Source of the DNA: Alphaproteobacteria bacterium SO-S41
GTDB lineage: Bacteria > Pseudomonadota > Alphaproteobacteria > Micropepsales > Micropepsaceae
Reading direction: 5' to 3'
Length of the DNA: 64,000 nt
Assembly: GCA_019670725.1 (NCBI GenBank)
Contig: AP024629.1
Location: 2,170,001 to 2,234,000, forward strand
Below the pieces are notes generated by a model. That model was not told where the DNA came from and searched no databases. It saw only the letters and a program-made list of their open reading frames with translations. Shown here in pieces: positions 58,315-63,461 of this stretch. How positions within the stretch are numbered: the stretch's first letter is position 1; each line of letters starts with the position of its first letter. The translations under genes were made by a program, and so were the position numbers.

Positions 58315-58971
58315 ATGAGCGACGAGAACCCCGAGTTCCGCGACAAGCTGATCAAGTCCAAAGAGCGCTGGGCGCGCGAGGGCCGGCTGCTGACCGGCTC
58401 GCCGGACCTGCAGCACGCCAAGCGCCTGCCGCCCGGGCAGCGTGAGGTGAAGAACTGGCCGGTGCTCGATCTCGGCGCGCAGCCGAATATTCCCAAGGAC
58501 CAGTGGCGGCTCTTCATCAACGGCGAGGTCGACAATCCCGTCCGCCTGGACTGGGAGGGTTTCATGGCTCTGCCGCAGATCGACAGCGTCTCGGACATGC
58601 ACTGCGTCACGCAATGGAGCCGGTACGACAATCACTGGAAGGGCGTGTCGAGCCGCACGATCCTCGATCTCGTGATGCCGAAGATGGACGTGAAGCACGT
58701 CGTCTTCCACTCCTACGACACCTACACGACCAATGTGTCGCTGGAGGTTTTCGCCGATCCCGATGTGCTGCTGGCTCATACCTGGGAAGGCCTGCCGATC
58801 ACCCGCGAGCATGGCGGGCCGCTGCGCGTGCTGATCCCGCGCTGGTATCTGTGGAAGAGCGCCAAGTGGATCAAGCGCATCGAGTTCGTCACCAACGACA
58901 AGCCGGGCTTCTGGGAAACCCGCGGTTACCACAACGAAGGCGATCCTTGGTTGGAGCAGCGCTATTCGTGA
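58315..58971 (+). CDS. Sulfite-oxidase-like molybdopterin oxidoreductase
   Basis: A 218-aa protein of the sulfite oxidase fold that carries the molybdenum cofactor. The cofactor-ligating Cys97 lies in SDMHCVTQWSRYDNHW. There is no signal peptide and no heme domain, so it is a small soluble enzyme whose electron partner is not evident. The C-terminal half has HTWEGLPITREHGGPLRVLIPRWYLWKSAKWIKRIEF, the hallmark of the YuiH/YedY-related group. Substrate unknown. Confidence 0.88.
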   Translation: MSDENPEFRDKLIKSKERWAREGRLLTGSPDLQHAKRLPPGQREVKNWPVLDLGAQPNIPKDQWRLFINGEVDNPVRLDWEGFMALPQIDSVSDMHCVTQWSRYDNHWKGVSSRTILDLVMPKMDVKHVVFHSYDTYTTNVSLEVFADPDVLLAHTWEGLPITREHGGPLRVLIPRWYLWKSAKWIKRIEFVTNDKPGFWETRGYHNEGDPWLEQRYS

Positions 58972-60251
58972 AGGGTGAGCGATAGCCGCGCCAGTTCTTC
59001 CTCCAGCCGCGTGAAGCCGGTACGGCCGCCGCGGGTGATGAGCGGATCGGTCGAGGTGCCGGTGACGAAATAGACTGTGGCGCTGTGCTCTTGCGGGTCG
59101 ATCCAGATGCCGCCCAGCAACCCGTAAGCCTCTGCGCCGTGACCGAAGCGCGCCCTGCCACCGGCGAACAGATCGTCGCGACAGGCGGGCGAGGGCGATG
59201 CGCCGAGGAGGTGCAGTCCGGTGCCGTAGGCGCATTCGGAACCGCGGGCGCTGTCGCCATTGGCGCCGGCGGTATCCAGCGTCCAGACCGGCTTGGCGAA
59301 GGCGGCAACCGTGGTGGGCTGGACGAGCGGCTTGCCAGCCAGTGGTCCGCCGGCAAGCACGCGCGCGATCGTCACCAGTTCGCTCAGCGAAATGCGCAAG
59401 CCGCCTTGCGGGCTTAAGGGGCCGGCATTGGTGCCAGGCGGAAAGGCGTCGAGATCGCAGGCGACGCCATCGCCCAGCACGGGCGCGACGCAATCGGGCA
59501 GGGCGCCGTTGCGGTTGTCGACCTGCGGCAGGAAGGGACCGCCGGGGTGCCAGACCTCGTCGTCGCCGGCGGAGCGGTAGAGCACGGCGGCGCGGCTGGC
59601 TGGGCCGGCGGATGAACCGGACCAATTATAGGTCGCCTCCAGTCCAAGCGGCTGGAAGACGAGGCGTGCCATCAGCCGATCGAAGCGCTCGCCGGTTGCG
59701 TCCTCCATTGCCGTGCCGGCGATGACGAGGCCGAGATTGGCGTAGGTGTAGAACGTGCCGGGCGTGTGCGCGGTGTCCCAGTGCTCCGGCTTCGCCAGTT
59801 CGGCGCGGAGATTACCGCCCAGCGGCACGACGTAGTTGCCGCCGTCGCGCAGGCTGGAGACATGCGCGAAGAGTTGGCGCAGCGTGACGGGCGTGTCCGG
59901 AAAGGCGGGATTGCGCAGTCTGAAACCCAGATAGCGCGAGATGTCGGCGTCGAGATCGAGCTGGCCCTGCTCGACCAGCCGCATCGCGCCGATCGCCACG
60001 ACCAGCTTGGAAATCGACGCGATGCGCACGGGACTGTCGGCCGTGAAGGCGCGGTTGCAGGTGCGACCGTCGACGGCGAAGACAGCGCAGCCATCGGCAT
60101 AGGTTGCGACTGTGCCGTCCGGCGACACATTGGCCATCGCCACCGCCGCGATCCGCGTATCGAGCTTCGCCTCCAGTCTCTCCTTCAGCGTCGTAGGCGC
60201 ACAGGCGGCGAGCGCTAGGCTTAGCCCGATCGCCGCCGCGCGCCAGCTCAT
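58962..60251 (-). CDS. Lipoprotein serine hydrolase (class C beta-lactamase / PBP-like)
   Basis: A 429-aa protein with a lipobox (L14-A-A-C17) indicating a lipoprotein. The catalytic Ser79-I-S-Lys82 (ASISKL) and the Tyr-x-Asn box TYANLGL (about residue 165) are clear, and the third box was not identified with confidence. The beta-lactamase-like fold can be an esterase or peptidase; the function here is not known. Its start overlaps the stop of the alkylsulfatase gene by four bases, so it is coupled to it. The 3' end overlaps the oxidoreductase gene by 10 bp. Confidence 0.83.
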   Translation of the reverse strand: MSWRAAAIGLSLALAACAPTTLKERLEAKLDTRIAAVAMANVSPDGTVATYADGCAVFAVDGRTCNRAFTADSPVRIASISKLVVAIGAMRLVEQGQLDLDADISRYLGFRLRNPAFPDTPVTLRQLFAHVSSLRDGGNYVVPLGGNLRAELAKPEHWDTAHTPGTFYTYANLGLVIAGTAMEDATGERFDRLMARLVFQPLGLEATYNWSGSSAGPASRAAVLYRSAGDDEVWHPGGPFLPQVDNRNGALPDCVAPVLGDGVACDLDAFPPGTNAGPLSPQGGLRISLSELVTIARVLAGGPLAGKPLVQPTTVAAFAKPVWTLDTAGANGDSARGSECAYGTGLHLLGASPSPACRDDLFAGGRARFGHGAEAYGLLGGIWIDPQEHSATVYFVTGTSTDPLITRGGRTGFTRLEEELARLSLTLHE

Positions 60252-62257
60252 GGCGTGACGATGTTGAAGTTCGGGTCCAGCGGGTCGATCAGACCGGCCA
60301 GCTTGCCGTAGAGCGCGCCGTCCCCGTCGGACTCGATGCCGCGCGTTTCGACCGCGACGCCGGCGAACAGGGTCGCCATGAGGTCCAGCCGCTTGAGGCG
60401 CACCGTCGCGCCCGCCGCCGGATCGGTGACGCCTTCCTCGTGGATCAGCACGCCGTTCTCGACGGTGATGAGATGCGTCTCGTTCGTATCGGTCAGCACG
60501 AGGTTGATCTTGAAATCCTGCTGCAGCGCCCGGTCAGGATTGATGCGTACGGCGGCGAAGTCCAGCAGCATGGCGGTCGAGGTCGCCTGCAGGACGTCGG
60601 GGCTAAGGCCCGTCGGCGGCAGCTTCAGCGGCCCGTTGCGCAGCTCCTGCGCGCCGGTGAGATAGATGTTCCGCCACGTCCCGGCCTCCGCCTGATAGCC
60701 GAGCTGGGTGTAGATCGCCGCGAGCTGCTCGCGCGCCGCCGTGGTCTCGCCGCCCGCGAAGACAACATTGTTGAGGAGGGTCGCGGCCCAGCGGTAATCG
60801 CCCGCATCGGCGGCGGTCTTTGCCCGGGCCATCACGGCCTCCGCGCCGCCCATTGCCTCGACATATTTTACCGCGGACTCTTCCTGCGGCAGCGGCCAGA
60901 GGTTCGCAGGGTTGGCGTCGTACCAGCCCATATAACGTTGATAGACCGCCTTCGCGTTGTGGCTCATCGTGCCGTAATAGCCGCGATTGAACCACTGCTT
61001 GGCGAGCACGTCGGGCAGCTTCAGGACTTCCGCGATCTCCGCGCCGTTGAGGCCGGCATTCATCAGCCGCACGGACTGATCGTGCAGGTATTTGTAGGCG
61101 TCGCGATGGCTGGCGAGGAAGGTCGCGATGTTCGCCTGGCCGAAGCGAGGGATGCCATGCGCGGCGAACATGACGTCGCTCTTGTCGGCGTAGAGACGGA
61201 TCGCCTGTGTCAGGTAGTCGGCCCAGGCCTTGGCGTCGCGCACCAGCGCACCGCGCGCGGGCAGCAGGTTATGCATGGTGAGGTTCGCGTTCTCCGCCAT
61301 GAAGAGCGCGCGGAACTGCGGCAGGTAGAAGTTCATCTCCGACGGCGCTTCGGTGCCGGGGGTGATCTGGAACTCCAGCTTGACGTCGCCGACCGTGATG
61401 GTCTGGCCGGTCCTGGTGACGAGATCGGTCGGCGCGACCAAGGAGATCGTGCCGCGCGAAATGCCCGGCCCGAGGCCCGAAGTCATCTCGCCATCCGCGC
61501 CGCGGGGCAGGGTCAGGCCGAACTGGAAGCGGGCGCGGCGCGCCATGGCGGGGCCGGCGATGATGTTTTCGGAAACCGCATGCTCCATGAAGCCGTCGGG
61601 CGCGATCACCTTCACCTTGCCGCTGGCGACGTCTTCGCGCGTCGTGACGCCCAGCACGCCGCCGTAATGGTCGGCGTGGCTGTGCGAGTAGACGACGGCG
61701 ATGACGGGCTTCGCGCCGACCTTCTCGTTCACCAGATCGAGCGCCGCCTTCGCGACCTCCACGGTCGTCAGCGGATCGACCACGATCCAGCCCGCGCCAG
61801 CGTCGATGAAGCTGACTGTCGAAACATCGAAGCCGCGCACCTGATAGATGCGGTCGGACACCTTGAAGAGGCCGTTCTTGGTGAGGATCTGAGCCTGGCG
61901 CCACAGGCTGGGATTGGCGGTGTCGGGCGCCGGGCCGTTCAGGAAAGCATACGAATTCAGGTCGAAGACGACATCCCCGTTCTCCTTGCGGATCAACGGA
62001 TCGGCGCGGGTGGCGATGAAGCCGCGATCGGCGTCCGCGAAGTCCTGCTTGTCGTCGGCCTCGACGCGCGCCCTGGCGTCGGCCATCGCCTGCTGCGAGG
62101 CGGCGGAGGCGGTGGCGGCGGGCGGCTTGGGGATCGACGGCGCGCCCATCAGCAAAGGCGCGATCACCCCGCCAAAGGCATAGAGCCCGCCCGCCGCTAC
62201 CGCGCCGGTGAGCACAACGCCTGACAGCAAACCGAGAATGAACCTGCCGCGTGCCAT
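60248..62257 (-). CDS. Alkyl/aryl-sulfatase (SdsA1-like, metallo-beta-lactamase fold)
   Basis: Releases sulfate from alkyl sulfates such as SDS by inverting attack. The 669-aa protein starts with a membrane-type signal segment (about 7-30). The zinc site H192-x-H194-x-D196-H197 (SHSHADHYGG), then FMAENANLTMHN and the dimerisation helices (about 460-540), and a C-terminal SCP-like domain (about 555-665) give the complete SdsA1 layout. Divergent from a Crp/Fnr-type regulator with a shared 18-bp dyad. Natural substrate unknown. ATG 62257 is standard. Confidence 0.92.
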   Translation of the reverse strand: MARGRFILGLLSGVVLTGAVAAGGLYAFGGVIAPLLMGAPSIPKPPAATASAASQQAMADARARVEADDKQDFADADRGFIATRADPLIRKENGDVVFDLNSYAFLNGPAPDTANPSLWRQAQILTKNGLFKVSDRIYQVRGFDVSTVSFIDAGAGWIVVDPLTTVEVAKAALDLVNEKVGAKPVIAVVYSHSHADHYGGVLGVTTREDVASGKVKVIAPDGFMEHAVSENIIAGPAMARRARFQFGLTLPRGADGEMTSGLGPGISRGTISLVAPTDLVTRTGQTITVGDVKLEFQITPGTEAPSEMNFYLPQFRALFMAENANLTMHNLLPARGALVRDAKAWADYLTQAIRLYADKSDVMFAAHGIPRFGQANIATFLASHRDAYKYLHDQSVRLMNAGLNGAEIAEVLKLPDVLAKQWFNRGYYGTMSHNAKAVYQRYMGWYDANPANLWPLPQEESAVKYVEAMGGAEAVMARAKTAADAGDYRWAATLLNNVVFAGGETTAAREQLAAIYTQLGYQAEAGTWRNIYLTGAQELRNGPLKLPPTGLSPDVLQATSTAMLLDFAAVRINPDRALQQDFKINLVLTDTNETHLITVENGVLIHEEGVTDPAAGATVRLKRLDLMATLFAGVAVETRGIESDGDGALYGKLAGLIDPLDPNFNIVTP

Positions 62258-62326
62258 ATCGTCCCCCTGTCGCCGCGTGGGCGCGGCTTTGTATTGGCGG
62301 CAGTTTACGAGGCGGGTCGCATCTCT

Positions 62327-62344
62327 TTGTAACTTAGGTTACAA
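62327..62344. promoter_or_regulatory. Crp/Fnr-type operator dyad
   Basis: TTGTAACTTAGGTTACAA is an 18-bp dyad with perfect 7-bp arms (TTGTAAC / GTTACAA) and a 4-bp centre, the form of a Crp/Fnr-family site. It ends 3 bp before the likely ATG of the regulator gene and lies 70 bp upstream of the divergent alkylsulfatase start. That fits autorepression plus control of the sulfatase operon. The binding protein is inferred. Confidence 0.75.
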
Positions 62345-62347
62345 TTG

Positions 62348-63040
62348 ATGATGGCCCTCAGTGATCGCGATCAGGCCCGGCGCGTACTGGCGCAGGCCGG
62401 CTGGCTGGGCGGGCAGACCCCGGCGCTGGCCGAGGCGCTGCTGGCGCAAGGGCGTCTCGTCCGGCTGGCCGCTGGCCAATGGGCGCAGGCAGAGGGCGAT
62501 GAGGAAACCGGGCTGCTCGTGGTCGTCGAGGGCGCGGTGCAGCTCTATTGCCAGGCGCCGGGCGACCGCGAGGTGCTGGTGGGGCATGTCGAGGCGGGCG
62601 CGGCGCTCGGCCAGACCATGCGGTTCGGCGGCGGCCCGCGGATCGTGACCGCGATTGCGGTCGCGCCGAGCCTGGTGCTGGTGGTCGCCGACACTGCGCT
62701 GGAGCGGATCGGGCACGGCCAGCCGGACATCTGGCGGGCGGTCGCCAGTCTCGTCTATGCGCAGTTGCGCCTCACGGTACGCGCGGGCGCCGAGGTGGTG
62801 GCGCTGCCGCCACGGCAGCGGCTGGCCTCGCGGCTGCGCCTGCTGAGCCGGGCGACCGAGCGGCAGGGGGCGGTGACCCTGCATCTCAGCCAGCAGGCGC
62901 TCGCCGAGCTGATCGGGGTGACCCGCAAGACGGTGAATATCTGCCTCGCGGAATTCGCCTGGATGGGCCTCGTGGAGCTGGGATATGGCCGGATTACGGT
63001 CACCGATCCGCGTGGGCTCGATCGCGTCGCAGCGAGCTAG
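62348..63040 (+). CDS. Crp/Fnr-family transcriptional regulator
   Basis: About 230 aa from ATG 62348 or 62351 (MMALSDRDQ). An N-terminal cyclic-nucleotide-binding-like beta-roll (about 30-115) is followed by a long helix and a Crp-type winged HTH ([32 protein letters not shown], about 183-214). The cysteines of an Fnr iron-sulfur cluster are absent, and the cAMP-contact residues are not clearly present, so the signal is unknown. No ribosome site precedes the start, which is only 3 bp from a palindrome; the transcript may be leaderless. Confidence 0.82.
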
Positions 63041-63081: not shown

Positions 63082-63257
63082 CAGTTTCAGCAATCGAGAT
63101 GAGGCCGGTTACGGCGATGCCTCGGAGCGGCTTCTCGAAGCGCGTCCCGGGCCGAACCAAACACCTCCAAGAGACTCAGTTGTACCGCCGCGGGATGGTC
63201 CCACGGCGACATCACTATCATGCCTGCGAATACAGGCATGCGGAGACGGATACAGAG

Positions 63258-63461
63258 ATGGCTACTGGTACGGTCAAGTGGTTCAACACCACGAAGGGTT
63301 TTGGTTTCATTCAGCCGGAAGACGGCGGCGCGGACGTGTTCGTGCACGTGAGTGCGGTCGAGAAGAGCGGCATGCGCAGCCTCGTTGAAGGTCAGCGCGT
63401 CTCGTTCGAGATCGTCAAAGAGCGCGGCAAGTCGGCGGCGGGCAACCTGAAGGCGGCGTAA
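63258..63461 (+). CDS. Cold-shock protein (CspA family)
   Basis: A 67-aa single-stranded nucleic-acid-binding RNA chaperone. RNP1 KGFGFIQP and RNP2 VFVHVSA are intact, as is the opening [17 protein letters not shown] 63258 follows a weak GGAG; the longer frames from 62985 are rejected. It is preceded by a long untranslated leader, typical of cold-regulated csp genes, and followed by a terminator. Confidence 0.95.

Follow-up and report, generated by a model that had tools for sequence, protein, structure and literature searches.

The locus considered here lies in a window of 64,000 nucleotides, by which we mean the whole stretch of DNA that was analysed, and consists of a Crp/Fnr-family regulator gene, two divergently oriented enzyme genes and a short dyad between the two transcription units. 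The regulator gene (62351-63040, + strand) encodes 229 aa if it is read from the ATG at 62351; the ATG at 62348 is also possible. Both cNMP_binding (PF00027) and HTH_Crp_2 (PF13545) are found above the Pfam cut-off in the one chain, which places the protein in the Crp/Fnr superfamily, and its structure model (mean pLDDT 78.6) matches mycobacterial CRP in Foldseek at 7.4e-17. Its only cysteines are C67 and C198, none standing before residue 67, so the first-pass annotation was right to claim that the N-terminal cysteines of an Fnr-type 4Fe-4S cluster are absent.

On the minus strand lies the gene for an alkylsulfatase of the metallo-beta-lactamase type (SdsA1 / sec-alkylsulfatase family; 60248-62257), which is the predicted activated target, and then a serine hydrolase gene (PF00144; 58962-60251) which overlaps the sulfatase end by 4 bp and is probably co-transcribed with it. 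In the sulfatase, Pfam finds Lactamase_B, Alkyl_sulf_dimr and Alkyl_sulf_C, that is, the metallo-beta-lactamase, dimerisation and C-terminal alkylsulfatase domains of a class III (SdsA1-type) alkylsulfatase, and the nearest solved structures are sec-alkylsulfatase and SdsA1. The divergent sulfatase-serine hydrolase pair that had been named earlier is hereby confirmed for both genes. As a partner the serine hydrolase is not constant: tblastn with this protein gave no match in the locus of one relative (G003) and matches of only 23-28% in two other loci.

A few neighbouring elements deserve to be recorded in their own right. A molybdopterin oxidoreductase-domain protein (PF00174, sulfite-oxidase type; 58315-58971, +) adjoins the sulfatase operon, and a gene like it is found at the same place in the G003 locus; a link to sulfur oxidation is possible. 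Downstream of the regulator, in the window (63252-63461, +) as in the G003 locus, stands a gene for a cold-shock-domain protein. Opposite the probable sulfatase leader there is a terminator-like stem followed by a T-rich stretch (62272-62287, +). MFS-type transporters recur beside the regulator or the sulfatase (L105:3910-5196, L049:6783-8048, and downstream of the regulator in L047), the assignment resting on a Pfam run for the L105 copy only; it is possible that they take up the substrate.

The dyad itself, TTGTAACTTAGGTTACAA, occupies 62327-62344, has its centre between 62335 and 62336 and belongs to neither strand. Its two 7-bp arms, TTGTAAC and GTTACAA, are perfect inverted repeats flanking TTAG. 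As had been claimed, it ends 3 bp before the ATG at 62348; the distance to the next ATG, at 62351, is 6 bp, and the spacing in relatives suggests that the latter may be the true start of the regulator. When the window was searched at up to three mismatches, the dyad was matched at one place, read on both strands, and 100 dinucleotide-preserving shuffles of the window gave no match. In its own 4.44-Mb genome, TTGTAACNNNNGTTACAA has a single place at up to two mismatches and its reversed control has none. The window shuffles, the genome search and the conservation upstream of relatives, described below, rule out a chance origin of the dyad, and we regard it as real.

For the comparison we collected relatives of the regulator at several levels. 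Counting the own genome, the window's family has them in 18 of 96 genomes at 1e-25; they occur in the class in 3 of 387 genomes at 1e-40 (two being the own genome and G003), and in a second family, f9, in 26 of 40 genomes at 1e-40. Named contigs gave 12 loci, mostly from Phenylobacterium MAGs together with Phenylobacterium sp. Root700; L043 was left out as a short match only, and L032 was taken to be the same contig as G003. A search at the level of the order found relatives in 15 of 86 genomes, none of them beyond those of the family search. The genomes compared differ in kinship, and the regulator tree has long branches for L068, L098, L048 and L094.

TTGTNAC-N4-GTNACAA is present, at no more than 3 mismatches in 12, upstream of 49 of the 55 regulator genes with a readable upstream (L066, L081 and L097 have no upstream sequence and are omitted); in 200 Markov shuffles the number was 1.5 of 55 on average and never above 4. 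The six misses carry 5 or 6 mismatches (L044, L058, L068 and L098) or 4 (L048 and L095). The conserved dyad can be written TGTNA-N6-TNACA, which is the half-site register of CRP.

The part of the protein expected to read these half-sites is likewise conserved. The recognition helix, T191-RKTVN in the window, keeps R192 in 58 of 58 relatives and K193 in 55 of 58. In E. coli CRP, R180 reads G2, and E181 together with R185 reads position 4 of TGTGA (PMC11253593). The regulator family has Lys at the place of E181 and a variable residue at the place of R185, and its operator is degenerate at that same position. The cAMP-CRP combination of a TGTGA-N6-TCACA operator with an R-E-T-V-x-R helix is hence not what is found here; the helix is RKTVN and the operator TGTNA. 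Further, in the three relatives with an ERK(T/S)VH helix and a readable upstream, the operator reads TTGTCCC or TTATCCC...GGTACAT, CCC replacing NAC. The rule that relates helix to operator is not strict, because L040, which has an SRKAAN helix, nevertheless has TTGTCCC as its left arm.

Toward the divergent gene, the dyad keeps a fixed distance to a promoter-like element. We counted in 51 of the 55 rows, namely those with an operator within 4 mismatches. Measured from the dyad centre, TAnnnT starts at nt 29 in 37/51 and at nt 30 in 8/51, and at any other offset from 10 to 99 in at most 3/51; in 1000 mononucleotide shuffles the best offset never rose above 5/51. After thinning to below 60% identity, the counts are 23/36 at nt 29 and 7/36 at nt 30 (30/36 together). 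The element is missing from both offsets in six rows (L037, L039, L041, L045, L046 and L048). In the window it is TAAACT (62302-62307, - strand), nt 29-34 from the dyad centre, and we consider it the probable sulfatase -10. If so, the dyad centre would stand some 40-42 bp before the predicted sulfatase transcription start, in the position of a class II activator. CRP-like activators of class II bind at a site centred near -41.5, overlapping the -35 region, and we assume that the spacing of the regulator site is as for CRP. A consensus scan of 62200-62420 found no sigma-70 promoter with a -35, but neither did it find one in shuffles, hence this result carries little weight. The comparison supports the first-pass proposal that the dyad belongs to the promoter region of the sulfatase.

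Toward the regulator the situation is different in kind, since here the promoter appears to lie within the operator. The probable -10 of the regulator, TACAAT (62340-62345, + strand), falls within the right dyad arm, 5 nt ahead of the ATG at 62351. In the window's family and the Phenylobacterium-type loci, TACNNT in the regulator-side arm ends 5-8 nt before the ATG in 11 of 12 cases measured, with 62351 taken as the ATG of the window. In L059 the nearest ATG (gap 0) runs into a stop, and an in-frame ATG follows 8 nt after the dyad. The regulator transcript is possibly leaderless, judging from these distances. Within the same two groups, every regulator-locus site (23 of 23) retains TTA in its regulator-side arm (GTTACA), but of six sites in the window's family with an outer arm that does not face the regulator, only one has it (Fisher 5.1e-5, uncorrected for kinship). 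In f9 the TTA is found in 6 of 25 only, and the ATG is mostly further from the dyad. Because the probable -10 of the regulator is inside the operator, autorepression, as proposed in the first-pass annotation, is likely: by comparison, the dyad overlaps the apparent core promoter of the regulator. It is not universal, as L044 and L058 have no operator beside the regulator.

The operator accompanies the sulfatase also where this target and the regulator are apart. We surveyed 59 of 60 sulfatase loci (L183 is without upstream sequence) from 78 matches, two of the other 18 being checked later; the survey leaves out G091:C371 (72%, regulator-less). Where the sulfatase has 63% identity or more to the L117 protein, an operator with at most 2 mismatches precedes it in 20 of 24 regulator-bearing genomes; for regulator-less genomes the count is 0 of 13. 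Fisher's test gives 6.7e-7, uncorrected for kinship, and since 10 of the 13 regulator-less genomes represent one genus, the contrast amounts to far fewer than 37 independent events. Sixteen of the 20 operator-bearing sulfatases also have a -10 at nt 29 or 30. Among sulfatases of 51-55% identity the operator at this threshold is found in 0 of 22; two have it at 3 mismatches, without a -10.

The placement of these 20 sulfatases varies: six are head-to-head with the regulator, one (G073) flanks it on the opposite side, and the remaining 13 stand on a different contig. In G073 the operator precedes the sulfatase and none is found beside the regulator; likewise in G001 the regulator is without an operator and the sulfatase, on another contig, has one. 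The four regulator-bearing genomes whose close sulfatase has no operator are G067, G100, G033 and G012. The best regulator match in G067 and G100 is only 1.5e-26 and 4.4e-38, respectively, and in G033 the second sulfatase lacks the operator as well.

A search for the exact pattern in 30 genomes gave 13 sites in 11 genomes. Eleven of them are at the regulator locus, and the two that are away from it both precede an alkylsulfatase with a -10 at nt 30. The exact pattern is absent from 6 regulator-less genomes, but also from 13 of 24 regulator-bearing ones, and its reversed control has 4 sites in the 30 genomes; for these two reasons the sulfatase test is the stronger. Since each of the 30 genomes has between 0 and 2 exact sites, a large regulon of such sites can be rejected.

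The sulfatase is not the only gene found behind this operator. The partners of 58 regulators comprise 41 TauD-family enzymes, 6 alkylsulfatases, 2 DUF1254 proteins (L095 and L096, confirmed on L096), one PF00884 sulfatase, one Rieske oxygenase and one P450, with 3 further cases of another or no such gene and 3 unlabelled; the labels come from Pfam on examples and otherwise from a profile or from sight of the protein. L098, whose partner is the P450, has no operator, and L046, the one with the Rieske oxygenase, has no -10 at nt 29 or 30. The PF00884 sulfatase faces a relative with an ERKTVH helix (L108:1603-4658) and contains CSPTRACLLTGR, which fits the FGly motif. Seven Sphingobium plasmid records carry a regulator relative of about 50% identity. 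All four of these loci that were examined have the operator at no more than 2 mismatches with a -10 at nt 30, and their divergent genes are atuA and a second gene, weakly Coq4-like on L195. On the regulator tree, the starred branches require that the partner switched between sulfatase and another gene at least twice. In families f1 and f9 the targets include both an alkylsulfatase and a TauD-family enzyme, and in L103 the two are neighbours on one strand. Many related genomes have the operator before a TauD-family dioxygenase at the regulator locus, some of them also before a distant alkylsulfatase, and in the window's lineage the sulfatase itself is at the regulator locus.

Regarding the TauD-family partners, two readings can be set aside. 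Taurine is an unlikely substrate, given that Asn stands at the place of His70, the TauD residue whose role underlies this argument, in 38 of 38. They are also not AtsK, as the two that were queried match TauD and phenoxypropionate dioxygenases better. When the L103 TauD was compared with 12 genomes, no match at 1e-60 was found in G000, G002, G003, G073, G082, G088, G089 or G100; G001 has a match of 44%, and the regulator-less G013, G016 and G022 have matches of 48-50%. The own genome has four TauD-family genes (30-40% to the L033 protein), and in the loci covered for them no operator was found at up to 3 mismatches. In two f9 loci a second TauD-like gene follows the first (L109:4736-5653, by a Pfam run, and L110:3704-4585).

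As regards the signal, the pocket places of the regulator were set by alignment to mycobacterial CRP and are named by the cAMP-pocket numbering of E. coli CRP (E72, R82, S83), with the Glu binding ribose and the Arg binding phosphate. The earlier suggestion that the cAMP contacts are missing holds in part: among 58 relatives none has Glu at the E72 place (Q in 31, Y in 25, F in 2) and 55 have L, V or I at the S83 place, yet 57 keep the Arg at the R82 place. Taken as a set, these residues are not those of a cAMP-binding CRP. In our opinion, loss of the ribose-binding Glu with retention of the phosphate-binding Arg suggests a ligand that is an anion other than a nucleotide. From the model we draw no ligand, because it is precisely in the pocket loop (89-96) that pLDDT falls below 50. 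As the signal, an anion that is not a nucleotide would fit best, possibly an alkyl sulfate. The idea of a sulfur-ester response is favoured by the content of the regulon, and an alkyl sulfate or sulfonate would fit the main targets, yet not all partners: AtuA, DUF1254 and the Rieske oxygenase have no evident sulfur link and count against a role confined to sulfur.

Taking this together, we consider it highly probable that the adjacent Crp/Fnr regulator uses the dyad as its operator, through which the sulfatase would undergo class II activation and the regulator autorepression. The comparison, computational throughout, supports this reading by the conservation of the operator, the fixed spacing, the co-occurrence with the target and the change of operator with a changed helix. 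We infer that the regulator binds, in which direction it acts, and that its probable signal is an anion of non-nucleotide type, e.g. an alkyl sulfate or sulfonate. A regulator dimer would bind the TGTNAC half-sites in CRP-like geometry. On the sulfatase side, acting as a class II activator, it would bring in RNA polymerase; on the regulator side the occupied arm would mask the -10-like element before the ATG and turn the regulator gene off, so that a single site could provide both activation of the enzyme and negative autoregulation. It is most likely that the sulfatase is activated, because of the class II spacing and of the operator before alkylsulfatases elsewhere in related genomes.

Could the bound regulator instead repress both genes, with an inducer releasing it? 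The dyad does cover the would-be -35 of the sulfatase, where occupancy could block polymerase. However, in 45/51 the -10 stands at just 29-30 nt from the dyad centre, a precision that a repressor would not need, and we regard repression of the sulfatase as unlikely. It is less probable still, and by a good measure, that the dyad is a site of some other palindrome-binding regulator common to these promoters, with the Crp/Fnr gene as merely one of its targets. Indeed a conserved dyad by itself names no protein, and the lack of an exact match in 6 regulator-less genomes is shared by 13 regulator-bearing ones. Against another protein speak the geometry of the dyad, which is that of CRP sites, the absence of an operator at up to 2 mismatches before close sulfatases in 13 regulator-less genomes, and the changed operator in the three relatives with a changed recognition helix.

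A third alternative departs from activation by the adjacent regulator in the signal alone and deserves to be taken seriously, even if we would not put it quite at even chances: the dyad has the same role, but what the regulator senses is not organosulfur; it would be a compound of more general type (an alkyl, terpenoid or carboxylate anion), to which the sulfatase, among several enzymes, has been recruited. It would accommodate the Sphingobium loci, where in four of four the operator with a -10 at nt 30 precedes AtuA and weakly Coq4-like genes, the relatives that face a Rieske oxygenase (L046) or DUF1254 (L095, L096), and the Asn at the His70 place in 38/38 TauD partners, which makes taurine itself unlikely. 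It accounts less well for alkylsulfatase and TauD-family targets together in f1 and f9, once adjacent (L103), and for the one relative (L108) that faces a PF00884 sulfatase. The opposite extension is more speculative, and we offer it tentatively, as somewhat doubtful: a Crp/Fnr organosulfate sensor which has lost the ribose contact and kept the anion-binding Arg, whose pocket reads alkyl sulfates or sulfonates, and whose operator-promoter cassette has repeatedly captured unrelated desulfating enzymes, namely the zinc alkylsulfatase, the TauD-type dioxygenase and, in one relative, the PF00884 sulfatase.

The activator that we propose for the sulfatase resembles known systems in parts. M. tuberculosis CRP and GlxR are the best sequence and fold matches to the regulator and have a like half-site register. 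Unlike in these, the helix Glu is replaced by Lys here and the equivalents of E72 and S83 are lost, and in place of a global regulon there are between 0 and 2 exact sites in each of the 30 genomes. The SdsB1/SdsA1 pair is likewise one of regulator and sulfatase, but SdsB1 is a LysR-type protein and thus of another family than Crp/Fnr. In Pseudomonas aeruginosa, SdsB1 is a known regulator of the SdsA1-type enzyme (PMC11940157). CprK, a fold match to the regulator, was solved with o-chlorophenolacetic acid and so provides a precedent for a non-nucleotide anion as ligand. Its targets differ from those of the sulfatase-linked regulator. A literature search confined to open-licence papers found no Crp/Fnr regulator of alkylsulfatases. 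The proposed mechanism belongs to a familiar type. What looks new, as far as the open-licence literature searched goes, is the subfamily with its operator and the set of its targets.

The analysis provides a regulator, an operator and a set of targets, all open to test, for the way in which Alphaproteobacteria degrade detergent-like sulfate esters. Because the Glu contact is lost and the operator is degenerate at the base pair concerned, the family is a natural test of the CRP recognition code. Further, unrelated enzymes are exchanged behind a conserved operator, and this offers hints to the function of TauD, DUF1254 and AtuA proteins, about which little is known.
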